Below, piece after piece: positions 6,481 to 22,222 of a stretch of 64,000 nucleotides of DNA. The stretch's first letter is position 1. Every line of letters begins with the position of its first letter. The position numbers and the translations under genes are program-made. Below the pieces are notes generated by a model. It saw only the letters and a list, made by a program, of their open reading frames with translations. It had not been told where the DNA came from and searched no databases. Source of the stretch: Devosia sp. Root635 (GTDB taxonomy: Bacteria; Pseudomonadota; Alphaproteobacteria; Rhizobiales; Devosiaceae); NCBI RefSeq assembly GCF_001427605.1, contig NZ_LMGZ01000020.1:164519-228518 (forward strand). The letters are read 5' to 3'.

Positions 6481-7683
6481 CTATGCCATCTGCCTGCGGA
6501 GGAGATTGAGCGATGCGCCGCCGAGGAGGAGCAGTAGGCAGAAGCCGACGACGACAGGCACGTATGATCCGGTGAAGTCGTAGACATAGCCAGCGATGAT
6601 GGGCGCGAGCATGGTTCCGGGGACCTGGATCATCATCAGATTGCCCTGAACGGTGGCAAACCCCTGCTGCCCGAACAGTTCGTTGCAGAGGACCAGCACC
6701 AGAACCATGGGGGCGCCGGCAGAGATGCCCAGGGCCGCGATGACGACGAGCATGGTGGCAAAGCCAGGGGCCAGGGCGAAGCTGCCGATGGCCAGGCCCT
6801 CCATGATGAGCAGGGCACCCAGGACAATCGGCAGGTGGGCGGGCTTTGCCTTGTCAGCGACGTAGCCGGCCAATAGCCGTACCGGGACCGACAGGAGGAT
6901 CATGCCGCCAAAGAGCGTACCGGCAAACACCGGATCGACGCCATAGTCCGTCATCAGCGCCACTAGATGCACCGAAAGCCCTGTTGTGACCGAGGCTTGC
7001 GCCATCAGGGCCATGGCAATGATCCAGAATGCGCTTTGCCGCAGAACGGACTGCCGTGGCGGGCTGCCGTCCGGCGTTGCCTGGGGCTTGTCCTGCCCTT
7101 CGATCCCGATCCTGTCGGCGCGAAAGAAGATGTAGGGCGCGGGAATGAGCAGCACCAACACGCCGGCCCAGACCACGCAGGTATATCGCCAGCCGATATA
7201 CTCGACCATGGTCGTGACGATCGGCACGATTAGCGTCGACACAATGGCCGAAATCGAAAAGCGAACGGCCAGGCCCATGCCGCGTTTGCTGCCCATGCTC
7301 GCGACGACCAGCTTGTCGAGCGCCACGGTGAAGCCGGCAGCAATGCCCACCGAAAAGATCAGTGACCAGACCAGGTAGAGCTGGATTTCGTTGCGCACAA
7401 AGGCCAGCGCGAAGAGCCCGAGGGCGGATGTCAGCATGCCGGCTATGACGATGCCACGGGGGCCTTTGGCATCGGCAATCCGGCCGATGGTGGGCGAAGC
7501 GAGACCGGCAACAAGCCGGCCCAGACCGATCGCGATCGAAATGGCGCCACGCCCCGTGTCGAGGTCGAGCGCCAGGGGCTTGAGCAGGGCGGAGACGGCG
7601 AAAGCTGCAAAGCCGTGCCCAAACCCGGTAAGCGCGCCGGTGGTTGAAACCAACCCCCAGCGCGCCTTTGGCCTGTCGGTCAT
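6481..7683 (-). CDS. MFS transporter (oxalate/formate antiporter-like)
   Basis: Twelve-helix secondary carrier of 400 residues with a central cytoplasmic loop around residues 195-215 and the MFS-type segment PTIGRIADAKGPR between helices 2 and 3. It resembles the OFA or monocarboxylate branch of the superfamily, so an organic anion is a reasonable substrate. The ATG at 7683 overlaps the stop codon of the TRAP large subunit (ATGA), so it is translationally coupled to it. A start five codons further upstream is possible but lies inside the preceding gene. A TRAP and an MFS carrier in one operon suggest separate uptake and export steps, or two substrates. Confidence 0.85.
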   Translation of the reverse strand: MTDRPKARWGLVSTTGALTGFGHGFAAFAVSALLKPLALDLDTGRGAISIAIGLGRLVAGLASPTIGRIADAKGPRGIVIAGMLTSALGLFALAFVRNEIQLYLVWSLIFSVGIAAGFTVALDKLVVASMGSKRGMGLAVRFSISAIVSTLIVPIVTTMVEYIGWRYTCVVWAGVLVLLIPAPYIFFRADRIGIEGQDKPQATPDGSPPRQSVLRQSAFWIIAMALMAQASVTTGLSVHLVALMTDYGVDPVFAGTLFGGMILLSVPVRLLAGYVADKAKPAHLPIVLGALLIMEGLAIGSFALAPGFATMLVVIAALGISAGAPMVLVLVLCNELFGQQGFATVQGNLMMIQVPGTMLAPIIAGYVYDFTGSYVPVVVGFCLLLLLGGASLNLLRRQMA

Positions 7684-8975
7684 AGGCTGGGCAACCACAA
7701 TACCAGGATCGGAAAGGCGATCAGCATGGTCACATGGAGAATATCCGCAGCCACAAAGGGCAGGGCGCCCTTGAACATGGTGGTGAGCGGAACGTCCTTG
7801 GCTATGCCCGACAGCACATAGACGTTCATTCCGACGGGCGGCGTCAGCAGCGCAATCTCGGTCATGCGGACCACCAGCACGCCGAACAGGATCGCGTCGA
7901 AGCCAAGCGTGGTGACCAGGGGGAAGAATAGCGGGATGGTCAGCGTCATCATTGCCGACGCATCCAGCACCATGCCGAGGAAGAGATAGACGACGAGGAT
8001 CAACAACAGCACCATCATCGGCGAGAAGCCGCTGTCGGCAACGAAGTTGACGATGTGGAGCGGAATGGTGCTGGCGGTAACAAAGCTGTTGAACACCATG
8101 GCGCCAAACAGGATGCCGAAAATCATGCCGGTGGATTTAAGCGTGGCGTAGATGGCCGTCCTGGAGGCCTCCCAGGACAGACGCCCCCGGATGATGGCTA
8201 TGACCAACGCGCCCGCTGCGCCGATCGCACCAGCCTCGGTGGGGGTGAACCAGCCCAGCAAGATGCCGCCCATGACCAGGGCAAACAGGGCGACCACCTC
8301 GCCGATCTTGGTAAAGCTCTGGAGCTTTTCCTGCAGCGTGTATTTCGGTCCGCGCGGTCCGGCGGTCGGATCGATGCGGCACCATATCGTGATGACGACC
8401 ATGTAGAAGATCGCCAGCAGGGTGCCCGGAATGATACCGGCGGCAAACAGCTTGCCGATCGAGGTTTCAGTCAGGATGCCATAGATGATGAACATGCCAG
8501 AAGGCGGGATCAGCGATCCGATGGTGCCGCCGGCCACGACCGCGCCCGACGCCATGGCCGTGTTGTAATTGTGCTTGCGCATCTCCGGCAGGGCGACGAG
8601 GCCCATGGTGGCCGTGGTTGCCAGGCTCGATGCACTCACCGAAGCAAAGCCCGCCGAAGCGCCGATCGTGGCGATGGCCAGGCCGCCGCGGCGGCGGCCC
8701 AGCCATTTGGCTGCGAAGTCAAAGAGATCTCGTCCGATGCCCGCTGCAAACAGGATGTGCGCCATGAACAGGAAGAGCGGCACCGTACCCATGGCCTGAT
8801 TGGTGGCCATGTGGAAGGTGGTGACGCCGACGCGGACAATGGCCGCGTCGAAGCTGACCAGGAGACTGAAACCGGCAAAGCCGATCAGGCCCATGGCAAA
8901 GCCGATAGGCATGCCGAAGCCGATCAGCGTGAACAGGATTGCCAGGCCTGCAAAACCTATCGAGACCGCGGTCAT
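7680..8975 (-). CDS. dctM: TRAP transporter large permease subunit (DctM-like)
   Basis: 431-residue membrane protein of the DctM family, the sodium-driven translocating subunit of a TRAP importer. Hydrophobic helices run through the whole length. Family features visible include the LIPPSGMFIIYG segment and the LLTPPVGMNVYVL segment near the C-terminus. The start was placed at the ATG at 8975, which overlaps the stop of the small subunit. Further upstream the open frame reads through the small-subunit gene in another frame. It works with the receptor and small permease encoded just upstream. The ligand is probably an organic acid. Confidence 0.92.
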   Translation of the reverse strand: MTAVSIGFAGLAILFTLIGFGMPIGFAMGLIGFAGFSLLVSFDAAIVRVGVTTFHMATNQAMGTVPLFLFMAHILFAAGIGRDLFDFAAKWLGRRRGGLAIATIGASAGFASVSASSLATTATMGLVALPEMRKHNYNTAMASGAVVAGGTIGSLIPPSGMFIIYGILTETSIGKLFAAGIIPGTLLAIFYMVVITIWCRIDPTAGPRGPKYTLQEKLQSFTKIGEVVALFALVMGGILLGWFTPTEAGAIGAAGALVIAIIRGRLSWEASRTAIYATLKSTGMIFGILFGAMVFNSFVTASTIPLHIVNFVADSGFSPMMVLLLILVVYLFLGMVLDASAMMTLTIPLFFPLVTTLGFDAILFGVLVVRMTEIALLTPPVGMNVYVLSGIAKDVPLTTMFKGALPFVAADILHVTMLIAFPILVLWLPSL

Positions 8976-9490
8976 TCTGTGTAATCCGGATGGGCGTGGT
9001 CGTCTTCCGCCGGCATGCCACGCAGGAGCTTGTACCCCTGCCAGACAAGCAGGATGCAGAGCAGCGTCAGGGCTGCAGCCATGCTCCAGCGGAAAGGCGC
9101 GACAGGCACGTTGATGATCGGGGAAAGTTCGTTCTGGGCCCCGCGATGGATGGCTTCGCGGACGGTCGCCCACACCACGGCGACCCAGAACAGCGATCCC
9201 AGGAGCAGCATGGCGCCGTGAATGGCAAGCCGCAGTCGCGTATTCTTGATGCGCTCCACAAAGAGCGTCGCCCGCGTGTGTTCGTTATGCAGGGCGGCAT
9301 AGGCCACCGAAATGCTGACGGCCGGGATGAGCAACAGTTCGGAAATGGAATAGGTGCCCGGAAAGGCGATGTGCATGGCGCGGAACACCACCGTCACCAC
9401 GGTCAGCAGCATGAGGCTGAAAATGGCCAGTACGCCCACGATTCCCACTGCATCACTAATGCGGCGTAAGAAATTGTCGATTGCTTGCAT
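8972..9490 (-). CDS. dctQ: TRAP transporter small permease subunit (DctQ-like)
   Basis: 172-residue protein with four predicted membrane helices, the usual architecture of the DctQ accessory subunit that couples receptor and large permease. The start MQAIDNFLRR follows the intercistronic hairpin after the receptor gene. A longer open frame upstream overlaps that receptor gene and is not real. The stop overlaps the start of the large subunit by four bases. Confidence 0.88.
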   Translation of the reverse strand: MQAIDNFLRRISDAVGIVGVLAIFSLMLLTVVTVVFRAMHIAFPGTYSISELLLIPAVSISVAYAALHNEHTRATLFVERIKNTRLRLAIHGAMLLLGSLFWVAVVWATVREAIHRGAQNELSPIINVPVAPFRWSMAAALTLLCILLVWQGYKLLRGMPAEDDHAHPDYTE

Positions 9491-9507
9491 GGTTTGCCCA
9501 CCATTGA

Positions 9508-9557: not shown

Positions 9558-10571
9558 TTACTGGGGGAGAGCGGCGCGGATCTTGTCGAGGATCTCGGTC
9601 CCCGGCAAACCAGCGGCGTCGAGCTGGCTGGCCGTTTCGCGCGCTGCCGGCTCAAAGGCGAGGGAATATTCCGCAATCACTTCCGGATCGACGGCGTTGA
9701 AGGTCACGCCCAGGCTTTCGCCGTGCTCGCGGCCCGCCTCTTCGGACTCCTGCGCCAGCTCGTAGGTCCGCTCCGTCAGCCATTCGATGTTGTCGAGGAA
9801 CACCTTCTGGATGTCTTCGGGGAGCGATGACCAGGCATCGGCATTCATGGCCCGCGAGGGATAGGCACCGCGGCTGTGCGGCAGTTCGGAATAGTAGTGG
9901 ATCACTTCGGCGAAGCTCAGCGACTTGAGAGCTTCGTAGGGTGCAATCACGCCATCGAGCACGCCGCGCTGCAGCGATGGATAGGTGTCGGTCATCGGCA
10001 TGGTGACGCCTTCCGCACCGGCGGCAGTCAGCGCGCCGATATAGTCGACGGCTGAACGGATACGCAGACCCGCCAGGTCCGACACCTGCGTAAACGGCTT
10101 TTCACGCAGCATCAGGTGCATGGGCGTACCCACATTGTAGCCGAGCACCTGCGCGCCTTCGAGTTCCTCGGTATATTGAGGATACTCATCCCACAGCGCC
10201 AGATAGACCTTGAGCACGTCGCGTGCATCCTTGTAGCCGTAGAAGAACTGCGGGGTCAGGCGATTGAGGTCGTAGCCGGAGGTGGCATAGATCGGGGCGA
10301 TGTAGGCCATGTCGGCGACGCCGGCGTTCAGCTCGTCAATGCCTTCGCGGCTGTTGATCAAGGAGCCACCCCAGAACGGGGTGATTTCGACACGGCCATC
10401 GGTCTGCTCGTGAACACGGGCGATCCATTCCTCGTCCGCCTTCCCATAGGGATGGGTCGGCGTGTAGGTGGTCGAATATGTCAGGTTGAATTCGGCAGCC
10501 ATGGCTGCCGCAGATGCAAGGCCAAGGCTGGTGGTGGCGATAAGTGCCAATGCCAGAGATTTCAGTTTCAT
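9558..10571 (-). CDS. dctP: TRAP transporter substrate-binding protein (DctP-like)
   Basis: Periplasmic receptor of 337 residues. The N-terminus has a Sec signal peptide (MKLKSLALAL, hydrophobic core, AMA-AEF cleavage region near residues 28-31). The core matches the DctP fold, with the inter-domain segment around LAGLRIRS and the later segment GVLDGVIAPYEALKSL. The start is fixed by a GGAGG sequence six bases upstream of the ATG at 10571. It is only 33 bases after the last CoA-transferase gene, so import is tied to CoA activation of the substrate. A carboxylic acid is the likely ligand. Confidence 0.9.
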   Translation of the reverse strand: MKLKSLALALIATTSLGLASAAAMAAEFNLTYSTTYTPTHPYGKADEEWIARVHEQTDGRVEITPFWGGSLINSREGIDELNAGVADMAYIAPIYATSGYDLNRLTPQFFYGYKDARDVLKVYLALWDEYPQYTEELEGAQVLGYNVGTPMHLMLREKPFTQVSDLAGLRIRSAVDYIGALTAAGAEGVTMPMTDTYPSLQRGVLDGVIAPYEALKSLSFAEVIHYYSELPHSRGAYPSRAMNADAWSSLPEDIQKVFLDNIEWLTERTYELAQESEEAGREHGESLGVTFNAVDPEVIAEYSLAFEPAARETASQLDAAGLPGTEILDKIRAALPQ

Positions 10572-10604
10572 CGTTTCCTCCCTCAAAAACTGGTCGGGCC
10601 GCCT

Positions 10605-11768
10605 TTAGTGGCTTTGGCCCAGAAGTCGTTCTCTCCGCTCCGTCGCGATCCCCAGTTCTGCCAACACCTCCTCCGTGTCGGATCCGGGAAAACGGCCAAG
10701 ATTGCGGATTTCGGTGTTGTCACCGAGCCGAACCGGCTGGCCGATGTGACGGACGTCTCTGGTGCTGGTCCGTGTGTCCAGCACCATGCCCCGCGCGCGG
10801 TTGTGCGGGTCGTCCAATGCCTCGGCGATGTCGAGCACCGGGGCAAATTGCGTTCCCGCCGCGCCCAGAATCTCGAGCCATTCGGCGCGGGTGCGGGCGG
10901 CAAAGATCGCCTCTAGCGCGGCCCGTATTTCCGGCCGGCGCGAGGTGTCGTTCTGGGCCTCGATAAACTCGGGCCGCCCCACGGCGATGCAGAAATCGCG
11001 CCAGTAACGCGGCTCCATATCCGTCGTGCAGATGAAGAGGTCGTCCCTGGTGCGCCACAGCCCGATATCGGCGCGGCGGGTGCCGCGAGCGGGAATTTTC
11101 GATACGTCGGGGTAGCGCGAGAGGACGTTGACGAGCAGGCTCATGGCGCAGTCGGTCATCGCGACATCGACGTGCCGGCCCTGGCCGTTGCGGTTCCGCT
11201 CGTGCAGCGCGGACAGCGTGGCAAAAGCAGCATGGGTGCCGGTCACCACATCGGCGGCGGGAATGCCGGAAAAGCTCGGCTCGTCCGGATTTTCGCCAAT
11301 ACGCGAGAGAACACCCGCGATCGAAAGGGCTATCGGATCGTGACCCGGCTTGTCGCGATAGGGGCCGGTTTGCCCGCAAAGGGTCAGGCTGGTGTAGATC
11401 AGGTCGGGCTTGATTGCCTTCAGCACGGCATAGCCGAGCCCGATCTTGTCCATGACGCCGGGGCGGTAGTCTTCGACAACCACATCCGCCGTGGCGACGA
11501 GCTGCTTGATCGCCTCCAGGGCGTCGGCATCACTCAGGTCGAGCATGACCGAGCGCTTGTTGCGCGCCAGGATGTCGCCTTCGCGCAAACCGGCACGCTC
11601 AGCCTCGGAGAGCTTGTCCCAGCCGAACACCTGGGCCTGCTTGGCGATCTCGCGCGGGTTCTCGACGCGGATGACATCGGCACCCATGTCGGCGAGCAGC
11701 CATGTGCAGTAGGGGCCCGGCAGGAATTTGGAAAAGTCGACGACGCGAATGCCTTCGAGTGCGCTCAT
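10605..11768 (-). CDS. CaiB/BaiF family (class III) CoA-transferase 1
   Basis: 387-residue class III CoA-transferase expected to move CoA between a CoA thioester and a free carboxylate. The N-terminal segment VVDFSKFLPGPYCTWLLADMGADVI is typical. The likely catalytic aspartate is D144 in PGHDPIALSIAG, the position of D169 in formyl-CoA transferase. The ATG overlaps the stop of CoA-transferase 2. As the gene nearest the TRAP receptor it is a good candidate for activating the imported acid. The acceptor and donor are unknown. Confidence 0.9.
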   Translation of the reverse strand: MSALEGIRVVDFSKFLPGPYCTWLLADMGADVIRVENPREIAKQAQVFGWDKLSEAERAGLREGDILARNKRSVMLDLSDADALEAIKQLVATADVVVEDYRPGVMDKIGLGYAVLKAIKPDLIYTSLTLCGQTGPYRDKPGHDPIALSIAGVLSRIGENPDEPSFSGIPAADVVTGTHAAFATLSALHERNRNGQGRHVDVAMTDCAMSLLVNVLSRYPDVSKIPARGTRRADIGLWRTRDDLFICTTDMEPRYWRDFCIAVGRPEFIEAQNDTSRRPEIRAALEAIFAARTRAEWLEILGAAGTQFAPVLDIAEALDDPHNRARGMVLDTRTSTRDVRHIGQPVRLGDNTEIRNLGRFPGSDTEEVLAELGIATERRERLLGQSH

Positions 11769-12856
11769 CGGCCTGCTCCTGCGGCCAGGGTCGAAGCGGG
11801 CACCGGCTTGGCGAGGCTGCGCCTGGGCGCATCCATCGCAGCCGAATGGAACAGGGGGCCGGGCAGGTTCACACTCTCGCCCGTTGCCTCGTCGGTGACG
11901 GGGACAAAAAGCCCGCGCGCGGCCAGATGGTCGCTATCGCGCACATCGTCCGGCGCCATGATCACCGAGAGGCCCCAGCCGCGTTCGAGCGACCATCGCC
12001 CCAACTCGCTGCGGGTATGCGCCGCAAAGAAGGTGCCGAATACCGCCTGCCAGCGCTCGATGGTTTCCTGCGCGGTGTCGGCGACGAGAATGTTGCCCCA
12101 GTCGATTTCGCTGAGTTCGCCCGCGGCGCCCTGTTCGATCATCACGCCGACGACGGCGCGCATCATCGATGGATTGTCGATCATCGACCAGGTGACATAG
12201 CCGTCCTTGCAGGGCCAGATCTGGCGGACGCCCGATTTGCCGCGCACGAGGAGATTGCCCTGACGCCGGCCGATGCGGCCGGTCCATTCATACATTACCG
12301 CTTCCCGGTAATTGGCCAGCGTCGTGCTCTGAAATGCGGACAGGTCCGCGCCCTGGCCCTTCCCGGTTTTCCGGCGCGCATAGAGGGCCATCAATGCAGC
12401 CGTGGCCGCCTGGATGCCGGTGAGGGCATAGGCCTGCTGGCCAGGAAATTTGAGCGGCGTTCCGGTGGGGTCGCCGGTGACATGCATAAGCCCGGAGAGA
12501 GCGAAAAGCGTCAGGTCGGAAGCCGGGCGGCCCGCATAGGGGCCGGTCGGGCTGAAGGGCGTCACTTTGACGTAGATGATGGTCGGATTGACAGTGGTGG
12601 CCAAATTGAAGCGGTCGCCGTTGCGCTGGCCGTCGAGGATGATGTCGACCGATTGCGCCAGCGCCCGGATGGCCTCGGCACTGTCTGCGGTGACCCGAGT
12701 CTTGCCATGGTGCCAGGCGCGTTCGCGGGACTTTTCCTGCGGCGCCTCGGGCAACACGACGGTCACATCGGCGCCGAGCTCGGCCAGCATGCGGCCGCCG
12801 AAATCGGTCAGTCCATCGGCTATTTCGAGAACTTTCAGACCGGCAAGCATGCTCAT
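11765..12856 (-). CDS. CaiB/BaiF family (class III) CoA-transferase 2
   Basis: 363-residue CaiB-family protein, shorter than its neighbours, with a compressed N-terminal region between the first Rossmann element and residue 60. D114 in RPASDLTLFALSG occupies the catalytic position, so activity is plausible. Its start and stop both overlap neighbouring genes by four bases, so three CoA-transferases are made as one translationally coupled set. Three unlike CaiB proteins in a row may form heteromers or serve successive acids. The sequence alone does not decide between these. Confidence 0.86.
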   Translation of the reverse strand: MSMLAGLKVLEIADGLTDFGGRMLAELGADVTVVLPEAPQEKSRERAWHHGKTRVTADSAEAIRALAQSVDIILDGQRNGDRFNLATTVNPTIIYVKVTPFSPTGPYAGRPASDLTLFALSGLMHVTGDPTGTPLKFPGQQAYALTGIQAATAALMALYARRKTGKGQGADLSAFQSTTLANYREAVMYEWTGRIGRRQGNLLVRGKSGVRQIWPCKDGYVTWSMIDNPSMMRAVVGVMIEQGAAGELSEIDWGNILVADTAQETIERWQAVFGTFFAAHTRSELGRWSLERGWGLSVIMAPDDVRDSDHLAARGLFVPVTDEATGESVNLPGPLFHSAAMDAPRRSLAKPVPASTLAAGAGR

Positions 12857-13989
12857 GCGAGACTTCCTTCGCGCATGAGGGTGTCAACCTCTGCGCCATC
12901 GAGCCCGAGCATGTCGACGTAAACGTCCCGATTGTGCTGGCCCAGGAGCGGGGCGGGCCCGATTTTTCCGGGCGTTTCGGAAAACACGTAAGGCGGCGCC
13001 GGCATCGAGGAGAGACCCAGCACCGGGTGCTCGACCTTGGTGTAATGGCCGCTGGCCAGGAGTTCCGGGTTCTCGCTGAGATCCTTGCCATCCAGCACGG
13101 GCCCGGCGGCCACGCCGGCAGCGCTCAATTTGTCGAACAGGGCGAACTTGTCCTGGCCCTGCGTCGCCGCTGCGATCGTCTCCCGGTCGAGGGCGGCGAT
13201 GCCGAGGCTTGTCTTCAGCGCTTCGGCCTGGGCGTTGTTTTCGGCCGTGATGGCGATCCATTGGTCGGTCCCTGCCGTGGGGAAAACGCCGTGAACACGG
13301 CACGACGGATCGTCGTTGCCGGCCTTTTCCGCGCGGTCCTGCGCGTAAAGGTCGGCGATGACGTGAACCATGGGCTCGATCTGGGAGACGTCGAGATGCT
13401 GCCCCTCGCCGGTTCTGGACCGATGTTCGAGCGCGGCGAGGATGGCCACCGTGAGGAACATCGGGGCGACTACATCGCCATAGGCCAGTGGCGGCATATG
13501 GGGCGGGTTGTTTGCTTCGCCGGTCAGCCAGGCATGGCCCGAATGCGCCGCGGCCGAGTTTCCATAGCCGCGGAACCCAGCCATGGGTCCGGTTTTGCCG
13601 GCCACCGAAACGCTGGCGAGGATGATATCGGGCTTTATCTTTTTCAGCACAGCATAGCCGAGGCCGATGCGGTCCATGAAGCCGGGGCCGAAATTCTCGA
13701 CCACCACATCGGCCCAGGCGACCAGCTTCCTCGCAATTTCGATGCCCTTCGGGTCGGAGAGGTTGATCGTCACGCTTTTCTTGGACGTGTTGGTCTGCGC
13801 GAAGAAGGCGGAGCCGTCGAAATCCTTGGGGTCACCGGCGAATGGGGGCGACATGCGGCCCAAATCCAGCCGCTTGCGCGACTCGATCTTGATCACCGTC
13901 GCGCCATTGTCCGCGAGATCCTTGGTGGCGCGGGGGCCTGCCCCTACCCAAGAAAAATCGGCGATCCTCAAATCGGCCAATGCGCTCAC
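12853..13989 (-). CDS. CaiB/BaiF family protein 3, catalytic Asp position changed
   Basis: 378-residue CaiB-family protein and first gene of the long minus-strand operon. The start is a GTG at 13989 preceded by GAGGGAGGA. A more upstream ATG lies in the operator region and has no ribosome binding site. In the segment GFRGYGNSAAAHSGHAWLTG the position of the catalytic aspartate appears to be G143, while the downstream SG(H/L)..LTG context is kept. Some CaiB relatives naturally share this YG-type motif and may use another residue or be non-catalytic partners. The promoter just upstream carries both a MarR1-type and a GntR-type operator. Confidence 0.83.
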   Translation of the reverse strand: MSALADLRIADFSWVGAGPRATKDLADNGATVIKIESRKRLDLGRMSPPFAGDPKDFDGSAFFAQTNTSKKSVTINLSDPKGIEIARKLVAWADVVVENFGPGFMDRIGLGYAVLKKIKPDIILASVSVAGKTGPMAGFRGYGNSAAAHSGHAWLTGEANNPPHMPPLAYGDVVAPMFLTVAILAALEHRSRTGEGQHLDVSQIEPMVHVIADLYAQDRAEKAGNDDPSCRVHGVFPTAGTDQWIAITAENNAQAEALKTSLGIAALDRETIAAATQGQDKFALFDKLSAAGVAAGPVLDGKDLSENPELLASGHYTKVEHPVLGLSSMPAPPYVFSETPGKIGPAPLLGQHNRDVYVDMLGLDGAEVDTLMREGSLA

Positions 13990-14028
13990 AGCGCGTCCTC
14001 CCTCACAGTCAGCTTCAAGTGCCGATCT

Positions 14029-14042
14029 TATTGTCGACAATA
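14029..14042. promoter_or_regulatory. TTGTCGACAA-type operator upstream of CaiB 3
   Basis: Perfect 14-bp palindrome TATTGTCGACAATA overlapping the -10 element of the CaiB 3 promoter. The core TTGTCGACAA recurs upstream of the P450 gene and, as TCGTCGACAA, upstream of the GntR regulator gene. It fits the T-N-GT...AC-N-A pattern of FCD-type GntR operators. Confidence 0.7.
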
Positions 14043-14068
14043 TTGGTTCAGTCAGTGAACTGTGTCAA
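14040..14068 (-). promoter_or_regulatory. Promoter of the CaiB/TRAP/MFS operon
   Basis: On the minus strand TTGACA (14063-14068), a 17-base spacer and CAATAT (14040-14045). The -35 box overlaps the last codons of the upstream dehydratase-like gene. The spacer is filled by the MarR1-type palindrome, and the -10 box overlaps the TTGTCGACAA palindrome. Confidence 0.65.
14046..14060. promoter_or_regulatory. MarR1-type operator (GTTCA-N5-TGAAC)
   Basis: Inverted repeat GTTCA-gtcag-TGAAC inside the spacer of the CaiB 3 promoter. It matches the two other AGTTCA-N5-TGAACT sites flanking the marR gene at 16591. Confidence 0.72.
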
Positions 14069-15339
14069 ATTCTTTCCGCGAGTATCGCGTCCAATACGGG
14101 AACAATCCGCGCCGTGATTTCGTCCCGGTTCCACTGGCGCTGGTCGACCATGTCGGACCATACCTCGATCACCCGCACGCCGGCTGCCTCAAGGGCCTCC
14201 TTGGCAAAGAGCGATCCATGTCCGGAGAACCGGTCATGCTCGGGAATAAGCATCAGCGCGACGTCGATGCGGAAGCGCTTTGCCTGTTCGACCATCCAGC
14301 TGTTGATCCAGGGTGGCTGGTGCAATTGCTCGTTCATGGCGGAGACGCGCGCCGCCAGGGCCCGCAACGGATCGCCTTTGCTCTCGCGGATATAGCCATC
14401 CGCCGCAAAGGGCAGGTACATCGACCAGGCAAAGACAGCGCCGTGGCTTGCTTCGAAGGCCGCGTAAAAGCTGGTGTCGAACCACAGGCCGGCGCCGATC
14501 CACATCATCCGGATGCGCTCGTTCTCGACGACGCTTGTGCCGGCATCCACACGGGCCGCGACCTCGTCGCGGAACCGCTGCGCATGCTCGATGGCCCAGT
14601 CCGATCCGCGATGCCATTGCGGGATCATCACATTGGGGATCTGTTCGGAAATCCGAATGGGGCATTGCGGGGCTGCGGCGATCAGCGCCGTCGCTTCCTC
14701 GTAAATGCGCTCCTGCTCATTGATCCTGTCCATATAGAGCGCAAAGCCATCGTGATCGAAGCTCTTGCCGGTCAGTGCTTCCAGTTGCTCGATCAGCGCC
14801 TTGAACTCGGCGACCATCAGGTCCAGCCGATCGGTATGATAGAGCTCTTCCCAATCCTGGCGGGCCAGACGCCACCAGTCCGCCTGGGGATCGGGCACCG
14901 CCGGGGAGGAAATAAGGGCGAGTGGCGCCCCGGTTTTCTCGGACCACAGCGAGAAGATCTTCTGATGATCGTCCGCGCTTTGCCGCGCGCACAGGATGGA
15001 AGGGGTCGGCAGTCCGCCCCATGGCTGGCGACCGGTATCGCCTTCCAGCTCGGCAATCAGCGGCAAGCTCGAATAGCGGGCCAGCCGGCCATGAAAGCCT
15101 GCTGCCTCCATATAGTCGAAATAGAATTCGGACAGCTGCTTGGCCGCGATAATGGCCGACCACCATTGGTTGGTGACGATCGGCACGCCGATATGGTGGA
15201 ACAGCTCGTGCGGCGTATCCGCATTCACGAATGCGTATTTCTCGCCCGAGGTGATCTGCGCCCGCAGACCCTTGGCCCATTCGCGCTGGTAATCGGCAGC
15301 GATCCTGGTGGATTCGAGTTGGGTATAGTCCTTGCTCAT
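14065..15339 (-). CDS. 2-hydroxyacyl-CoA dehydratase family protein (HgdB/BcrB-like), large subunit
   Basis: 424-residue protein of the family holding 2-hydroxyglutaryl-CoA and phenyllactyl-CoA dehydratase subunits and benzoyl-CoA reductase subunits. The family-like core runs from HELFHHIGVPIVTNQWWSAIIAAKQ (about 44-68) onward, with a long C-terminal Rossmann-like half. Only two cysteines exist in the whole protein (C117 in SILCARQ, C226 in PQCPIR), whereas active members use three to ligate a [4Fe-4S] cluster. It overlaps its partner by four bases. The next operon promoter lies in its last codons. Family membership is solid from motifs, but chemistry is uncertain. Confidence 0.78.
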   Translation of the reverse strand: MSKDYTQLESTRIAADYQREWAKGLRAQITSGEKYAFVNADTPHELFHHIGVPIVTNQWWSAIIAAKQLSEFYFDYMEAAGFHGRLARYSSLPLIAELEGDTGRQPWGGLPTPSILCARQSADDHQKIFSLWSEKTGAPLALISSPAVPDPQADWWRLARQDWEELYHTDRLDLMVAEFKALIEQLEALTGKSFDHDGFALYMDRINEQERIYEEATALIAAAPQCPIRISEQIPNVMIPQWHRGSDWAIEHAQRFRDEVAARVDAGTSVVENERIRMMWIGAGLWFDTSFYAAFEASHGAVFAWSMYLPFAADGYIRESKGDPLRALAARVSAMNEQLHQPPWINSWMVEQAKRFRIDVALMLIPEHDRFSGHGSLFAKEALEAAGVRVIEVWSDMVDQRQWNRDEITARIVPVLDAILAERI

Positions 15340-16460
15340 TTCCGCGCCTCCAGTGCCTGCTCGATCAATCGAGAAGCGCGCTCAAGCCAGCCTGTATCGG
15401 GATTGGAATCGCGAAATCCGAGATTGACGCAGGCCACTCCGTGGGAGCCCAATTCGGCAAACAGCGCCGGGATTTCCCAGCCGAAAGTGTCGTCGGTCTG
15501 CGCCAGTTGGCAGAGCACCACTGCGCATTTTGCGTCGACGAGATTTCTGACCAGCGCAGCGCGATATACACTGGCCGGCGTGATGCGGAAGCACGATGGA
15601 TCGGCGGCCGTCGCGCTCAGGATGCCATCGAGGTCCGCTTCGGCATTGCCGGGGCCCGGCCATGTCTGACCAAAGGTCTGTTGGTCACAAACCACGGTGC
15701 CAAATTGCTCAATCATCCTGTAGGTGCGTGGGCAGGTCAGCGGCGACCCCACAATGCCGATCCGGGTACTCACCAGCGTTTCAGCCGGCGAACCGAGCGC
15801 ATCGGTGACGAGCCCGGCATGCTCGGCGGCGCTCATGAAGCGGCCGGCATTGCGCCATGTCGCAGCAGTGCTTCCGCTCAGCGTTACGCCCACGGCCTGC
15901 CGAAGCTGCATCAGTGCCTCGGCGCGGCTGGCTTCGGCAGCTGCCGCGTCCGCCACCGCACTGTCGGAGGGATATGCGAGACCGACATTTTCCAGGAAAG
16001 CAAAGAGCTTTTCGGCCTGGATGTGGTTGAAGTCCTGCACCGGCTTTGTGTCGGTATGCACGAGATTCCAGAGAAACAGCGGGGGCGTAGGCTCGCGCTC
16101 GCGGTCCTGACGGATCCACTCATTGGCATACTGATAGGCGATCATGGCCGGGGCGTCGTCGCGGGCAAAAACGATCCCGGCAAGCCCGGCGAAATCGCCC
16201 TTCATCAGCCTGACGAGGAAATGGCGGACCTCATCATCGACAAAGGGTTCGATGACCGCCTCTATGGGATGCCTGGCGGTTGTCGTGCCCAACGAGACAT
16301 GGACCGGCAGGCCGCCTGCGGCTGCGATCAGCGTCTCGGGCATGCCATTCCCGAAGATGCCGACACGCCCTAGGCTGGTCGCCTTCGACCAATCTTCTCT
16401 CTGCTGACTGGCGCGTTCGAGCGCTGCCGCGGCGGACACCGCGGCCTCAGGACTCGTCAT
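15336..16460 (-). CDS. 2-hydroxyacyl-CoA dehydratase family protein (HgdB/BcrC-like), small subunit
   Basis: 374-residue partner of the protein encoded after it. The family pattern is visible as GNGMPETLIAAAGGLPVHV (38-55) in the first half and GIVGSPLTCPRTYRMIEQFG then VLCQLAQTDD...PALFAELGSHGVACVNL in the second. Cysteines C243, C258, C290, C312, C317 and C344 are all in the second half. Where active homologues have the first cluster cysteines, this protein reads FVDDEVRHF and FARDDAPAM. The ATG at 16460 has GGAAGGG upstream and is preferred to a GTG at 16493, which lies inside the operator. No HgdC-type activator ATPase is encoded in the window. Confidence 0.77.
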   Translation of the reverse strand: MTSPEAAVSAAAALERASQQREDWSKATSLGRVGIFGNGMPETLIAAAGGLPVHVSLGTTTARHPIEAVIEPFVDDEVRHFLVRLMKGDFAGLAGIVFARDDAPAMIAYQYANEWIRQDREREPTPPLFLWNLVHTDTKPVQDFNHIQAEKLFAFLENVGLAYPSDSAVADAAAAEASRAEALMQLRQAVGVTLSGSTAATWRNAGRFMSAAEHAGLVTDALGSPAETLVSTRIGIVGSPLTCPRTYRMIEQFGTVVCDQQTFGQTWPGPGNAEADLDGILSATAADPSCFRITPASVYRAALVRNLVDAKCAVVLCQLAQTDDTFGWEIPALFAELGSHGVACVNLGFRDSNPDTGWLERASRLIEQALEARK

Positions 16461-16486: not shown

Positions 16487-16503
16487 AGTTCACTTTATGA
16501 ACT
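16487..16503. promoter_or_regulatory. MarR1-type operator (AGTTCA-N5-TGAACT)
   Basis: Perfect inverted repeat AGTTCA-cttta-TGAACT covering the -10 box of the dehydratase-like operon promoter in the divergent region with marR1. Confidence 0.78.
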
Positions 16504-16590: not shown

Positions 16591-17112
16591 GTGGCTGAAG
16601 ACGTTCAAAACTCCGCCCTTCCGGGAGTCGAGCTCGGGCCCTTGCGCGAAAACCTGCCGTTCCTGACGCGCGCTCTGCGTGCTTACATCCGGGCGGAAAA
16701 TGCCGCATTTTATGCTGCCCTCGATGCCGAGCAGGGCGAGATCGTCGTCCTCAGCGTCATCGGCCTCAACCCCGGCATGTCGCAGAATGACCTGGCGGCA
16801 ACGCTGGTGTTCAAGAAATCGGCCATTACCAAGCTGGTGAAAGATCTCGAAGCGCGGGGCTATCTGGAGCGTGCCAAGTCCGCCACCGACAGACGCTTCA
16901 ACGCGCTGCGCCTCACGGCGGCCGGACAGGAGCGCTACGCCAGGATCAGCGATCTCATCGCCCAGCAAAACGCCGCTTTTCTCGAACCGTTTTCCGAGCC
17001 TGAGCGCGTCGAACTCTTCGACTATCTCAATCGTCTCTACCGGCATCTCGGTCAGCGTCAGTTGCAGCGCACGGGCAATTCCAGCGTCATCGCCGAGGCC
17101 GGAGACGACTGA
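16591..17112 (+). CDS. MarR-family transcriptional regulator (MarR1)
   Basis: 173-residue winged-helix regulator. The recognition region is NPGMSQNDLAATLVFKKSAITKLVKDLEARGYL (about 60-92), followed by the wing segment with the conserved DRRFNALRLTAAG. The start is a GTG with GTGAGG about ten bases upstream. Palindromes of one sequence family (AGTTCA-N5-TGAACT) lie on both sides of this gene and in front of the CaiB/TRAP operon, so it is the best candidate to bind them and repress the CoA-transferases, the dehydratase-like pair and probably itself. MarR proteins in such clusters commonly respond to an aromatic acid or its CoA ester. The ligand here is unknown. Confidence 0.9.
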   Translation: MAEDVQNSALPGVELGPLRENLPFLTRALRAYIRAENAAFYAALDAEQGEIVVLSVIGLNPGMSQNDLAATLVFKKSAITKLVKDLEARGYLERAKSATDRRFNALRLTAAGQERYARISDLIAQQNAAFLEPFSEPERVELFDYLNRLYRHLGQRQLQRTGNSSVIAEAGDD

Positions 17113-17155: not shown

Positions 17156-17172
17156 TTGTGGAGGAGTTCAAG

Positions 17173-18336
17173 GTGGCCAAACCGCTTGCCGGCGTGCGCA
17201 TCGCCGATTTCAGTCATGTCATTGCCGGGCCGCTGGCGACGCATTTCCTGTGCCTTCTGGGCGCTGAAGTCATCAAGGTCGAACCGCCCACCGGGGACGT
17301 GCTGCGGAACTATACGCAGCGCAAGGAACTGCGGGGCATGGCAGAGGCGTTCATTGGAGCCAATGCCGGTAAAAAATCCATCGTGCTCGATCTCAAGAGC
17401 GCCGAGGGTCAGGAGGCTGCTCGCCGCCTGATCGCTACATCGGACATCATGGTCGAGAATTTTCGACCCGGTGTCATCGACAGGCTGGGCCTGAGCTACG
17501 AGAGCGTCAAGCAGGACAATCCCGGGCTCATCTATTGTTCCATCTCCGGCTATGGTCAATCGGGCCCCATGCGCGATTATCCGGCCATCGACCAGATCAT
17601 CCAGAGCGTTTCCGGGCTGATGGGGCTCTCGGGGGAGCCTGACGCCGGCCCCATGCGGGTTGGCTTTCCCATTGTGGATACCTACAGCGCGCTCCTGGCC
17701 GCCTTCGCCATGCAGTCTGCCTATATCCAGAAGCTGCGCGATCCCGAGGGCCGGGGGCAGTTTATCGACATGTCCATGCTCGACGCCTCCCTGGTAATGA
17801 TGGCGTCCGTCATCAACCCGCTGCTGATTTCCGGCATCGAGCCGCGACGCACCGGCAATCGCGGCTTCTCACTCGCGCCAACGGCCGACACTTTCCCCAC
17901 CGGGGAAAATGCCATCACCATCGGCGCAGTGCAGCAGAACCAGTATGAACGTCTTTGCGCCGCGCTCGAACGTCCCGACCTCCTGGACGATCCGCGCTTT
18001 GCCGATCCGGACAGCCGCATGGCCAATGAGGCGGCGCTGCAGGCTGAGCTCACAAACAGTTTTGCTGCCCGCACGGCGGCCGAATGGGAAGTGATCCTGG
18101 CTCAAGCCGGTGTTCCCGCCGGCGCCGTCCGCCCGGTGCGCGATGTGCTTGCTCTGCCCCAGCTTGAAGGCCGCAATCTCACCGTTGAGGTCGACGTACC
18201 GAGCCATGCAGTGCCGCGGACAACGATTCTCAATGCGGGCTTTCTCTTCGAGCGCGACGGTCCTGAAGTGGCCGGGCCGCCGCCGCGTCTGGGTGAGCAT
18301 ACCGAGGCCGTTCTCCGCGAGCTTGGCCTTGCATAA
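17173..18336 (+). CDS. CaiB/BaiF family (class III) CoA-transferase 4
   Basis: 387-residue class III CoA-transferase with the usual N-terminal segment RIADFSHVIAGPLATHFLCL and catalytic D140 in YPAIDQIIQSVSGLMGLSG. The GTG at 17173 is chosen because GGAGGAG ends eight bases before it. A GTG five codons earlier is possible but overlaps that ribosome binding site. It is co-oriented with marR1 and separated from it by an operator, so it is a direct MarR1 target. It is followed by a T-tailed terminator. Together with the dehydratase-like pair it recalls the FldA plus FldBC arrangement of anaerobes (inference). Confidence 0.9.
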   Translation: MAKPLAGVRIADFSHVIAGPLATHFLCLLGAEVIKVEPPTGDVLRNYTQRKELRGMAEAFIGANAGKKSIVLDLKSAEGQEAARRLIATSDIMVENFRPGVIDRLGLSYESVKQDNPGLIYCSISGYGQSGPMRDYPAIDQIIQSVSGLMGLSGEPDAGPMRVGFPIVDTYSALLAAFAMQSAYIQKLRDPEGRGQFIDMSMLDASLVMMASVINPLLISGIEPRRTGNRGFSLAPTADTFPTGENAITIGAVQQNQYERLCAALERPDLLDDPRFADPDSRMANEAALQAELTNSFAARTAAEWEVILAQAGVPAGAVRPVRDVLALPQLEGRNLTVEVDVPSHAVPRTTILNAGFLFERDGPEVAGPPPRLGEHTEAVLRELGLA

Positions 18337-18512: not shown

Positions 18513-19736
18513 TTGACCGATACGATGCAGCCTGCGCCCAAAACCTTCGTGCCCCCGAAGAACGATCTGCACGAATTCGATGCCGATGTGGTGGAGGGTT
18601 TTGACGATGTCCATGCGGTGTTCAAGGAATTGCGCGGTCGTTGCCCCGTCGCTCACACATCCGATTTCGAGGGCTTCTGGCTGCTTACCAAATATGACGA
18701 CGTGATCCGGGCGCTGGCGGACTATGAAAATTTTTCCACCGCCTACCAGAACGTGGTGCCGCGGGTAGCCACGTCCGGCCGCCGCCCGCCGCTTCACCTC
18801 GACCCACCCGATCACACGCCCTATCGCCGCGCCATCAGCCCGCTGTTCCACCCCGATCGCATGGCGTTCTGGGAGCCGGTGGTACGAGCCATCGTATCCC
18901 GCCTCCTCGCGCCGCTTGTCGAGCGGGGCAACTGCGATATTTGCGTCGATTTCTCTTATCGGCTGCCGATCTTTGTGCTGGCGGAGTTCTTCCATATCCC
19001 CGCCGAGCAGGCCGAGAAAATTCGCGACATCGGTGCCGATTTCAACCGGGCGCTGCAGGTGCGCGACAATGCCATGCTCGAGAAAACCAGCCTGTTTCTC
19101 TATGACGTGGCGCGCGACATCATCGCCCTGCGCAAGGAACAGCCGCTCGATCCGGGCGTCGATCCGACCAGCGCCATGCTCGCGGCTCGTGACGACGATG
19201 GCAATCCGCTTCCCGAGCCGATGATCCTGGGCACGATCCGTCAATTGCTGGTCGTGGGCATTATCGCACCCACCACCTTCACCGGCTCGATGGTTGTGCA
19301 TCTGGCGCGCCATCCTGAGCATTTCGCCATGCTCAAGGCCGATCCTGCGCTGATCCCGGATGCGTTGGAGGAATTGCTGCGCCTTTACACGCCCTATCGC
19401 GGCTTTGCGCGCACTGCCAAGCAGGACATTGAAATCGGTGGTCGGCTGATCAGGAAGGACGAGCCGATCGCCATGGCCTTTACCTCGGCCAACCGCGATG
19501 CCGACGCCTTTGAAGACCCCGATACCTTCCGCCTGGATCGGTCCGGCGACAGGAAGCACATGGCTTTCGGGCGTGGCCCGCACCAATGCGCCGGCGCTCC
19601 GCTGGCGCGTCTCATGCTGCGCATCACGCTGGAGGAGCTGATTTCCCGCACCAATGGCTGGGAAATGACGGGGCCGACGCCGATGACTACCTGGCCCGAA
19701 TATGGACCGCTGAGCGTTCCGGTGACGTTTCTTTGA
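18513..19736 (+). CDS. Cytochrome P450
   Basis: 407-residue soluble bacterial P450, probably a class I monooxygenase for a small organic or aromatic acid. The heme-binding loop is FGRGPHQCAGAPLA with C359 as thiolate ligand. The K-helix E287-x-x-R290 lies in EELLRLYTPY. In the I-helix the segment LLVVGIIAPTTFTGS places A252-P253 where P450cam has D251-T252, so the acid-alcohol pair used for oxygen activation is absent. Translation starts at a TTG eight bases after GGAGGAGAG. No ferredoxin or ferredoxin reductase gene is adjacent. TTGTCGACAA sites upstream suggest control by the GntR protein encoded downstream. Confidence 0.92.
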   Translation: MTDTMQPAPKTFVPPKNDLHEFDADVVEGFDDVHAVFKELRGRCPVAHTSDFEGFWLLTKYDDVIRALADYENFSTAYQNVVPRVATSGRRPPLHLDPPDHTPYRRAISPLFHPDRMAFWEPVVRAIVSRLLAPLVERGNCDICVDFSYRLPIFVLAEFFHIPAEQAEKIRDIGADFNRALQVRDNAMLEKTSLFLYDVARDIIALRKEQPLDPGVDPTSAMLAARDDDGNPLPEPMILGTIRQLLVVGIIAPTTFTGSMVVHLARHPEHFAMLKADPALIPDALEELLRLYTPYRGFARTAKQDIEIGGRLIRKDEPIAMAFTSANRDADAFEDPDTFRLDRSGDRKHMAFGRGPHQCAGAPLARLMLRITLEELISRTNGWEMTGPTPMTTWPEYGPLSVPVTFL

Positions 19737-20573: not shown

Positions 20574-22154
20574 ATGACAAAGCTTATGAACCGCCATGTG
20601 CATCGCACCGCGGTAAGCTTGCTGGCTGGTGTTGCGTTGACACTGTCCCCGATTATGCCTGCGTGGGCCCAGGCTGATGACCTGATTATCGCGCTGTCCA
20701 CCTTCTCGGAAGAAACCATGACCCCCTGGAGCGGGTCGGGTCAGCGTAAAACCTATCTCGATGTCGTCTACGAATATCTCACCTATGCCGAACCTGGCAC
20801 GCTCAAGACCATTCCAGGCCTGGCGGAAAGCTGGGAGATGAGCCCTGATGGCAAGGCGTGGACCTTCCACCTGCGCCATGGCGTCCAATTCTCCGGCGGC
20901 TATGGCGAAATGACGTCGGCCGACGTGGCTTATTCCATCGAGCGCCTCATTCGCGATGACTCGAGGGCCGGTCCATCCTCGCCCATGCGTCGTCTCATCG
21001 CTTCGGTCGAAACCCCGGACGACTACACCGTCGTCGTCAAGCTTCACTTCCCAGACTTCGAACTGGCGCAGGGCTATTTCGGTGCGGCGCAGCAGCTGGG
21101 CATCGTTTCCAAAGCGTATTTCGACGCGCTCGGTGAAACCGACGCGGAGGCGAAGCCCATTGGCACCGGCGCCTATGAACTTGCCTCGATCAACCCCGGC
21201 TCGGAGATCGTCATGACCTTGCGGGATGACGTAGCCGACCACTGGCGCGTCCATCCTGAATTCGAGAATATCGTCTTCAAGGTCGTGCCCGAGGAGTCGA
21301 CCCGCGTTGCCATGCTGCGCACCGGCGAAGCGGATATAGCGCCTATCGGCTTTGACTCCATTCCCACAGTGAAGGAAGCGGGTCTGACGGTCGTTTCGGC
21401 CGAGGCCACCTGGTCGCCAGTGGTCCGCTTCGGCGGCCTGGTTGAAACGTCCGACAATCGCTACAACGCGGACAATCCGTGGGCCAAGCGCGAAGTGCGC
21501 CAGGCCCTGAACTATGCCGTCGACAAGCAGCTCATCATCGATGAACTGTTCCACGGCGAAGCCACCGTCGCCTCGAGCGACACCCCGGTTCCCGCCTGGT
21601 CTGATGTCGAGCCCTATCCCTATGATCCGGACAAGGCCCGCGAGCTGCTCAAGGAAGCGGGCTATGAAAACGGCTTTGACATCACCATCAAGACCTTCAC
21701 CACGGCTCCGGGTGCCGAGCTGCCGCTGATGGCTGAAGCCGTCGCTCTGTTCTGGCAGGATATTGGCGTCAATGCCACGATCGAGCCGGTGGACTGGCCT
21801 TCGCTGCGCTCCGATTGGACCGAAGGCCGCGCCAACGACTACGTCTGGACCCACAGGGGCTTCCCCTTCTCCAGCGCCGCCAACGGGCTGGAAGCGGGCT
21901 TCATGGCGGCCAGCGTCTTTGCCGCCTATTCGACACCTGAGCTTGAAACCATGATCAACGACTTCTCCAACGAGCAGGATTTGGTCGAGCGGGAAGCCAA
22001 GTTCACGGCCATTGGCCAGTATCTGCGTGACGAGGCTGCGGCAGTGTTCATCGCTCTCGCCAATGAGCCCTACGGCATCTCCGACAAGGTCGGAGAATGG
22101 AAGATTACCACGGCCTATATGTGGAATTTCGACCAGGTTACGCGCGCCAAATAA
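20574..22154 (+). CDS. ABC transporter substrate-binding protein, family 5 (dipeptide/oligopeptide type)
   Basis: 526-residue periplasmic receptor of the DppA/OppA family. The N-terminus has a basic region, a hydrophobic core (residues about 14-28) and a signal peptidase site near AWAQADD (about 30-36). The family pattern GLAESWEMSPDGKAWTFHLR is present around residues 80-100. The start is set by GGGAGGA ahead of the ATG. It is the first gene of a six-gene coupled operon and is followed by a strong hairpin. Its operator is shared with the feruloyl-CoA synthetase operon, so the ligand may be an aromatic conjugate rather than a peptide (inference). Confidence 0.92.
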   Translation: MTKLMNRHVHRTAVSLLAGVALTLSPIMPAWAQADDLIIALSTFSEETMTPWSGSGQRKTYLDVVYEYLTYAEPGTLKTIPGLAESWEMSPDGKAWTFHLRHGVQFSGGYGEMTSADVAYSIERLIRDDSRAGPSSPMRRLIASVETPDDYTVVVKLHFPDFELAQGYFGAAQQLGIVSKAYFDALGETDAEAKPIGTGAYELASINPGSEIVMTLRDDVADHWRVHPEFENIVFKVVPEESTRVAMLRTGEADIAPIGFDSIPTVKEAGLTVVSAEATWSPVVRFGGLVETSDNRYNADNPWAKREVRQALNYAVDKQLIIDELFHGEATVASSDTPVPAWSDVEPYPYDPDKARELLKEAGYENGFDITIKTFTTAPGAELPLMAEAVALFWQDIGVNATIEPVDWPSLRSDWTEGRANDYVWTHRGFPFSSAANGLEAGFMAASVFAAYSTPELETMINDFSNEQDLVEREAKFTAIGQYLRDEAAAVFIALANEPYGISDKVGEWKITTAYMWNFDQVTRAK

Positions 22155-22162
22155 GGCCTATT

Positions 22163-22189
22163 CTGACGGCGCCGTCCTGCGCGGCGCCG
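22163..22189 (+). terminator. Intercistronic hairpin after ABC receptor gene
   Basis: Perfect 9-bp arms GACGGCGCC/GGCGCCGTC (22163-22171 and 22181-22189) with a 9-base loop, nine bases after the receptor stop codon. No T-tract follows, so partial attenuation or mRNA protection is more likely than termination. Confidence 0.68.
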
Positions 22190-22222
22190 TCTTCCACCGA
22201 CTGCAATGACTATTGGGACGCA

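Follow-up and report, generated by a model that had tools for sequence, protein, structure and literature searches.

A 2-hydroxyacyl-CoA dehydratase-like gene pair in Devosia sp. Root635 that appears to have lost its iron-sulfur cluster ligands

We focused on two overlapping genes at positions 14065-16460 (minus strand) of a 64,000-nucleotide stretch of DNA from Devosia sp. Root635 (contig NZ_LMGZ01000020.1), the whole of which is referred to as the window here. Both genes encode PF06050 proteins and share an ATGA stop/start overlap. The product of the first, LARGE (14065..15339, minus strand), has 424 amino acids and is a HadB/BzdO-type (α) subunit, and the product of the second, SMALL (15336..16460, minus strand), has 374 amino acids counted from its ATG, with a further in-frame GTG at 16493, and is a HadC/BzdN-type (β) subunit; they score 121.7 and 43.3 bits, respectively, against PF06050 (cutoff, 28.4). 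The best explanation for these genes is that they form a cluster-free descendant of the radical 2-hydroxyacyl-coenzyme A (CoA) dehydratase/benzoyl-CoA reductase family. At the sites of the cluster ligands, LARGE has A87, A122, and D369 and SMALL has D75, D102, and D323, and the active-site Glu position of LARGE is occupied by Q58. On sequence grounds, we regard it as nearly certain that this pair has lost the canonical cysteine ligands. The pair has the same scaffold and the same kind of partner, a class III CoA-transferase, as the dehydratase family, yet we found neither the cofactor ligands nor the activator by which that family is defined. Given that a radical dehydratase is unlikely in this aerobic alphaproteobacterial lineage, the annotation “2-hydroxyacyl-CoA dehydratase family” can mislead pathway reconstruction.

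Fold, ligand sites, and active site

Alignment-based AlphaFold models of LARGE and SMALL reached a mean predicted local distance difference test score of 91.0 and 94.4, respectively, and both have the three-domain HadB/HadC fold. The LARGE model matches HadB (3o3m_A) with a VIA Z of 39.6 and a root mean square deviation of 2.5 over 392 residues, and the SMALL model matches HadC (3o3m_D) with a VIA Z of 37.0 and a deviation of 2.6 over 357 residues; the best matches outside the fold family have a Z of 7.0 for LARGE and 9.1 for SMALL. Profile searches lead from LARGE to MbdO, BzdO, and HadB and from SMALL to BzdN, HadC, and DCCP. Since structure matches and profile searches agree, we assigned LARGE as the α-type (substrate) subunit and SMALL as the β-type subunit. 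LARGE stays far from the NCBIfam equivalogs (HadB, 34.4 bits; BzdO, 30 bits with a cutoff of 448.6; DCCP NF040772, 23.8 bits with a cutoff of 350), and for SMALL there is no NCBIfam match with an E value of ≤0.001. The ratio of nonsynonymous to synonymous substitution rates (dN/dS) relative to the nearest relative (locus L014) is ∼0.07 for LARGE and 0.19 for SMALL, indicating that both genes are maintained under purifying selection.

Relatives were collected by tblastn (E value of ≤1e-3) from a collection described as having a single genome per species (84,980 species), which yielded 294 related stretches, of which 80 were kept (loci carry “L” numbers here, and genomes carry “G” numbers). All 80 are proteobacterial according to their titles, and they are alpha- or gammaproteobacterial where the class is told or implied. 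The distribution is patchy, with 4 of 385 genomes of the class and 2 of 61 near relatives carrying the genes, the host genome being counted in both.

LARGE contains only two cysteines, C117 and C226, and the first cysteine of SMALL is residue 243, exactly as an earlier, sequence-only reading of this DNA had reported; C117 is not at a ligand position. That reading assumed two ligands in homologous proteins, a number that is too low, as the aligned classical proteins have at least three cysteines per subunit and BzdO has Cys95, Cys128, and Cys380 as cluster ligands according to PMC11971306. We aligned LARGE with 83 relatives (84 family rows, including two duplicates and leaving out L048) and five classical proteins, namely, the pairs of Sphingopyxis macrogoltabida and Rhizobium leguminosarum and YjiM of E. 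coli. The classical proteins have Cys at all three ligand columns, with the second Cys of SmacB shifted by one column. Among the family rows, Cys is found in 45 of 84 at column 1 (A87 in the window) and again in 45 of 84 at column 2 (A122), and at column 3 (D369) it is found in only 2 of 84, both copies of one TMPK1 sequence, with Asp in 38 and Asn in 38. HMMER alignment also places A87, A122, and D369 opposite the cysteines of HadB. A complete ligand set, which the sequence-only reading had named as evidence that would refute it, was not seen in the aligned window pair.

The states of three, two, and no ligands need only two changes in total on a tree of LARGE, in which the 39 rows with none and the 43 rows with two are each set apart by a single branch (support, 95 and 99); the TMPK1 protein of the Rhodospirillales is the sole family row with all three. 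This tree contained 88 rows (83 family and 5 outgroup), with L048 left out and L010 and L013 removed as duplicates of L050 and L020; two labels were set by hand, SmacB as having three ligands in spite of the column shift and L097 as having none. The direction of change is likely to be one of ligand loss, which is not proven given that the outgroup branches are saturated; the branches of L012 and L097 are also long, leaving the rooting unsure. The sphingomonad-type LARGE proteins (L052 to L093, e.g., L076:10001-11230) combine the two ligand cysteines with extra ones, giving CxxC and CxC at the old cluster site. The extra cysteines (columns of S90 and D124) and the two retained ligands (columns 87 and 122) are found together in one and the same set of 45 of the 84 rows, and the two motifs could possibly form a new metal site.

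In SMALL, the stretches FVDDEVRHF and FARDDAPAM, already singled out in the sequence-only reading, start at residues 73 and 98, and the third site, D323, lies outside them. We examined these sites in an alignment of 37 sequences picked for spread (the window-type loci L027, L032, L038, L039, and L048 are absent from it). Asp or Glu occupies the positions of D75, D102, and D323 in 35, 25, and 37 of the 37 rows, respectively, and all three at once in 24 rows, which are the 24 nearest the window's type. The other nine window-type rows sampled (L037 and L040 to L047) combine Asp at the first and third sites with Ser or Gly at site 2, and the triad is incomplete in four further rows (L050, L054, L056, and L092). 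Only 13 of 341 columns, including those of all three ligands, contain at least 65% Asp/Glu (hypergeometric P = 4e-5), this threshold having been chosen after the ligand columns were seen; all three are likewise among the 13 columns obtained at thresholds of 60 to 67% and the 20 obtained at 50%. The placement of sites 1 and 3 agrees with HMMER alignments of SMALL to HadC and BzdN (with weak stretches at site 1; i-Evalues, 0.0024 and 0.14), and that of site 3 also with an alignment to DCCP. Arg100, near D102 in sequence, is invariant (37/37). The sphingomonad-type SMALL (∼292 amino acids, e.g., L094:10991-11869) is annotated as hypothetical, has no Pfam match, and is mostly missed by BLAST with the window's SMALL, and a profile comparison links it to the latter (Prob, 99.9; E value, 7.9e-37). 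In its 23 rows, site 2 is Asp in 21 and site 3 is Asp/Glu in 23, and site 1 is mostly Ala or Pro and never Asp/Glu (0/23).

We then compared the active site of LARGE with those of characterized relatives, using 46 sequences picked for spread (L051 left out). Q58 lies opposite the Glu of HadB and MbdO and is invariant (46/46), as is A40; in HadB, Glu55 and Ser37 have catalytic roles. Both tyrosines Y89 and Y308 are invariant as well (46/46), and 45 of the 46 rows share A283. In BzdO, according to PMC11971306, Glu65 and His131 are acid/base residues and Tyr97, Tyr298, and Gln274 contact the thioester oxygen. In the printed alignments, Y308 is the counterpart of Tyr298 and A283 that of Gln274; Tyr97 corresponds to Y89 by its place two residues after ligand 1, and Glu65 would share the position of Q58, judging from its helix. 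His131 lies three residues beyond the second ligand, a place taken by H125 in the window's LARGE and by His in 21 of the 46 rows. Overall, 59 of 424 positions are invariant, and they are enriched in the CoA-binding elements (16/54, versus 43/370 elsewhere, when helix I is counted; Fisher P = 0.001), more strongly so without helix I (14/36 versus 45/388; P = 8e-5). LARGE seems, from its residues, to have kept the substrate-binding frame while the redox machinery is gone.

Search for an activator and the aerobic host

The sequence-only reading had noted that no activator is encoded in the window, and this absence extends to the whole host genome (3.82 Mb; completeness, 99.94%), which has no match to the activator model TIGR00241. 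The same model found nothing in 5 of 5 genomes (the host included), no match over the cutoff of 125.4 in any of 38 carrier genomes, which were reached through LARGE-bearing loci among the 80 kept, none in 59 sampled genomes of the family of G325 (carriage of the pair is not established for all of them), and none on a plasmid of Novosphingobium ES2-1 (a single record rather than a whole genome). An activator elsewhere in the genome, which the earlier reading had named as evidence that would speak against it, was thus not detected over the cutoff in the host or in the 38 carriers. As a positive control, TIGR00241 detected one and two activases on two plasmids with classical pairs, and it matched 6 of 14 named genomes, 5 of them over the cutoff. 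Two PF01869 matches over the cutoff in the host genome were considered as activator candidates and rejected, since they look, by eye and from their context (sugar transport in one case and a cobU-like neighbor in the other), like sugar kinases and TIGR00241 matches neither.

The host genome has two matches to COX1, which fits an aerobe, and the cytochrome P450 gene that the sequence-only reading had seen near the pair is indeed present (18513..19736, plus strand; PF00067, 84 bits). P450s of the same type (45 to 63% identical) are located close to LARGE in 16 of the 84 loci. As a separate observation, classical PF06050 pairs with activases occur on plasmids of Sphingopyxis macrogoltabida (L095:6114-10849) and Rhizobium leguminosarum (two activases; L096:9809-15237), organisms that we take to be aerobes.

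Operon, conservation, and substrate clues

Downstream of LARGE on the minus strand lie three genes for class III CoA-transferase-like proteins, CaiB1 (12853..14040), CaiB2 (11765..12856), and CaiB3 (10605..11768), followed by a tripartite ATP-independent periplasmic (TRAP) transporter consisting of the solute-binding protein DctP (9558..10586), the small permease DctQ (8972..9496), and the large permease DctM (7680..8984). DctM is named from annotated relatives and DctQ from its position and annotated relatives, and the order of both is conserved in related loci; DctP matches 76 PDB sequences at an E value of ≤1e-5, mostly with TRAP or solute-binding names among the matches listed. Divergent from this operon, on the plus strand, are genes for a MarR-type regulator (16591..17112; PF12802, 52.3 bits) and for CaiB4, a class III CoA-transferase (17158..18336; PF02515, 389.9 bits), and the P450 gene. 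Farther on, after the P450 gene and a GntR gene, positions 20574-24051 encode what looks by eye like a peptide-type ATP-binding cassette transporter operon (a binding protein and two permeases).

The Asp residue that is catalytic in class III transferases is present in CaiB1 (68/68), CaiB3 (27/27), and CaiB4 (78/79, with one gap), the window's copies included. CaiB2 has Gln in this column in 26 of 26 sequences (the fused sphingomonad half is outside this count), and in sphingomonads CaiB2-like and CaiB1-like halves are fused into one protein of 695 amino acids. CaiB2 is probably a noncatalytic transferase partner, for which BbsEF-type pairs offer a parallel.

To describe the locus as a unit, we used the 65 loci with full flanks, which comprise 33 of the window's group, 31 of the sphingomonad type, and L050. 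CaiB4 is found in 32 of 33 window-group and 31 of 31 sphingomonad-type loci, DctM in 31/33 and 31/31, DctP in 23/33 and 31/31, and CaiB1 in 23/33 and 30/31; a MarR-type match is present in 31 of the 33 and SMALL in all 33 window-group loci. Among the sphingomonad-type loci L052 to L093, SMALL was found in 39 of 42, and the exceptions (L059, L067, and L085) have LARGE close to the end of a contig or have a short contig. CaiB1 to CaiB3 are missing from 10 of the 33 window-group loci, all 10 of which have LARGE, SMALL, and CaiB4. The minimal module is CaiB4 with SMALL and LARGE, nearly always accompanied by a TRAP transporter. In L015, LARGE (81%) is one of the best-conserved proteins of the operon, along with CaiB4 (80%) and DctP (78%), with CaiB1 at 73% and SMALL at 50%. 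SMALL and LARGE form a single open reading frame (ORF) of 788 amino acids in genome G175 (L012:9257-11623). LARGE is a single ORF of at least 380 amino acids in 79 of 80 fetched loci; in Oceanicola sp. strain S124 (L048:3394-4787) it is split over two ORFs, representing a disrupted copy or an error in the sequence. Most sphingomonad-type versions also have genes for a CapA/PGA_cap protein and a CocE-type hydrolase beside them (L094:8132-9235 and L094:3609-5357), and CapA-like genes (31 to 35% identical) occur near L019, L029, L036, and L039 as well.

Clues to the substrate are few. The best PDB matches of DctP include 4n6d, 4nap, 4pgn, 4p56, and 5im2, and some of these presumably bind aromatic or aryl ligands (D-Trp, indole pyruvate, mandelate, and benzoate), an assumption for which a literature search gave no confirmation and which we treat as a lead only; database matches of the P450 were unspecific. 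Among 87 loci (query loci included in each count), an aldehyde dehydrogenase of one type (at least 71% identical; “vanillin-type” is our label) is found in 8, 4-hydroxybenzoate hydroxylase in 3, and hydroxycinnamoyl-CoA lyase in 2. The lyase and the hydroxylase pass curated cutoffs, and the aldehyde dehydrogenases pass none among the matches listed. In the search of the same 87 loci, these three aromatic-catabolism genes had no match of at least 70% near any window-type locus, so that the link to aromatic catabolism is weak. On a plasmid of Croceicoccus marinus (L104:16483-21495), the operon adjoins genes for a p-hydroxycinnamoyl-CoA hydratase/lyase, an aldehyde dehydrogenase, and an acetate-CoA ligase family protein. 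From this context, an aryl-acid type of substrate is weakly suggested.

Possible functions and comparison with known systems

In FldABC, a CoA-transferase feeds a two-subunit CoA-ester enzyme, and the best reading of the window's locus, by analogy, is that it belongs to aerobic organic-acid catabolism and is arranged in the same manner. We lean, with modest confidence, toward LARGE and SMALL being a non-redox CoA-ester enzyme without cluster or radical chemistry, given the low dN/dS and the conserved thioester site, which favor a working enzyme. CaiB4 would give CoA to an organic acid imported by the TRAP transporter, as FldA does for FldBC, and LARGE would hold the resulting acyl-CoA in the old active-site channel, acting without an iron-sulfur cluster, an ATP-driven activator, or a ketyl radical. 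SMALL would have stopped relaying electrons, its cluster cavity having turned into a putative three-carboxylate site, and may serve as a structural or regulatory partner, possibly with a divalent metal. The step performed on the CoA ester could be an addition, an elimination, or an isomerization by acid-base chemistry. A complex of LARGE and SMALL with CaiB4 is suggested by gene linkage and by the SMALL-LARGE fusion in one genome, and CaiB1 to CaiB3 would be accessory transferases, found in most but not all versions. The sequence-only reading had proposed that the pair kept the CoA-transferase partnership and lost or changed the radical chemistry, becoming a new enzyme or a CoA-ester-binding scaffold: the retained transferase and the loss of ligands, active-site Glu, and activator hold for the pair and its same-group relatives, and both the enzyme role and the scaffold role are putative.

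Several observations weigh against a cluster-free, non-redox enzyme or soften the statistics that accompany it. Asp can itself serve as an iron or iron-sulfur ligand, and in the sphingomonad-type branch, which kept two ligand cysteines and gained others, a metal or cluster may persist. The carrier genome G510 has a TIGR00241 match within a frame of 544 amino acids, with 23.2 bits, far below the cutoff. Site 2 of SMALL was placed by MAFFT alone, with Asp in just 25 of 37 rows, and it drops out when the Asp/Glu threshold is raised to at least 70%, leaving two of the three ligand columns (P = 0.003 to 0.0005); that D75, D102, and D323 would form one site is a matter of presumed geometry. The CoA-binding elements were delimited by transferring the BzdO boundaries through alignment offsets, and adding helix I weakens the enrichment of invariant positions (P rises from 8e-5 to 0.001 or 0.002). 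These softened statistics leave our leaning unchanged, since neither carries the main argument.

The main rival, which we rate as unlikely but ahead of the other alternatives, is that LARGE and SMALL are a noncatalytic scaffold or specificity subunit that presents or channels acyl-CoA while the CaiB transferases do all the chemistry. Such a role would agree with the loss of all cluster ligands and the active-site Glu and with a tightly kept gene order that includes several transferases, among which CaiB2 is without the catalytic-type Asp. It fits less well with LARGE being among the best-conserved proteins of the operon (L015) and with its 59 invariant positions, their moderate excess in CoA-binding elements, and the 10 window-group loci that dispense with CaiB1 to CaiB3 but keep LARGE, SMALL, and CaiB4. 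Simple decay into a remnant without function is hardly credible: the patchy distribution and the split LARGE of L048 would be expected of it, but the low dN/dS, the near-universal full-length LARGE ORF, and the conserved operon are not.

Somewhat less probable than a scaffold is the use of another metal cofactor, in which the SMALL Asp triad and the CxxC and CxC motifs of sphingomonad-type LARGE would bind a mononuclear or noncubane metal, either catalytic or as a Lewis acid. The Asp/Glu-rich ligand columns of SMALL (with the threshold set afterwards) and the strict co-occurrence of the S90/D124-column cysteines with the two retained ligands point this way. Against it, 13 of the 37 rows are without a full triad, including all of L037 and L040 to L047, site 1 is never acidic in the sphingomonad type, and the invariant Arg100 could simply neutralize the charge of D102. 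A specific version of the enzyme, an oxygen-tolerant acyl-CoA lyase or dehydratase in which the β cluster site became three Asp residues (binding a metal or acting as acid), the α cluster was dismantled stepwise, and the CoA-transferase partnership was kept, is doubtful, slightly more so than a metal cofactor; if its reaction still removed an α- or β-hydroxyl from an aryl-hydroxyacyl-CoA, it would parallel FldABC without using a radical. PF06050 membership, fold, and the linked class III CoA-transferase are all classical and would also suit a functioning oxygen-sensitive radical dehydratase with noncysteine cluster ligands and an unrecognized activator or an unrelated electron donor. Radical dehydration or a Birch-type reduction is nevertheless very unlikely, because the ligands, the active-site Glu (now Gln), and the activator are all gone, with no cysteine ligand left in the window pair, no activator over the cutoff in 38 of 38 carrier genomes, and a host genome with P450 and COX1.

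If active, a non-redox LARGE/SMALL enzyme would combine oxygen stability and CoA-ester chemistry with a scaffold thought to require ATP-driven electron injection, and the family makes it testable how an oxygen-sensitive radical enzyme is rebuilt for life in air. Neither this operon nor cluster-free members were described in the titles and beginnings of abstracts of the open-license PMC papers among the matches listed. PMC11971306 discusses a series in evolution that starts with double-cubane proteins and passes by way of BzdNO to 2-hydroxyacyl-CoA dehydratases with simpler clusters. The LARGE/SMALL family appears to extend this series, through intermediates that are still extant, to no cluster at all in the window pair.

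Among known systems, HadBC with HadA (PDB 3O3M) resembles the window in both subunit folds, the gene pair, and the class III CoA-transferase partner (HadA), but the window pair has no cluster cysteines, Gln instead of Glu in the active site, no activator that we could find, and an aerobic host. The phenyllactyl-CoA dehydratase FldABC shares the combination of a CoA-transferase with a two-subunit dehydratase-like pair, the complex of the window being predicted from its genes; unlike FldABC, the window pair is without cluster ligands, no activator was found, and it is linked to a TRAP transporter. With the class I benzoyl-CoA reductases BzdNO and MbdON (PDB 8S02 and 9G87), the pair has in common the fold and the two thioester-oxygen tyrosine positions of BzdO, but not the equivalents of Cys95, Cys128, and Cys380, the active-site Glu, Gln274 (Ala283 instead), or the ATP-activating module. 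Opposite the double-cubane ligands Cys73 and Cys327 of BzdN, the two that were mapped, SMALL has D75 and D323. DCCP (PDB 6ENO), finally, belongs to the same fold superfamily (Z of 29.1 for LARGE and 32.7 for SMALL), but it is a single protein with cysteines at the ligand sites, whereas the window encodes two different subunits with none.

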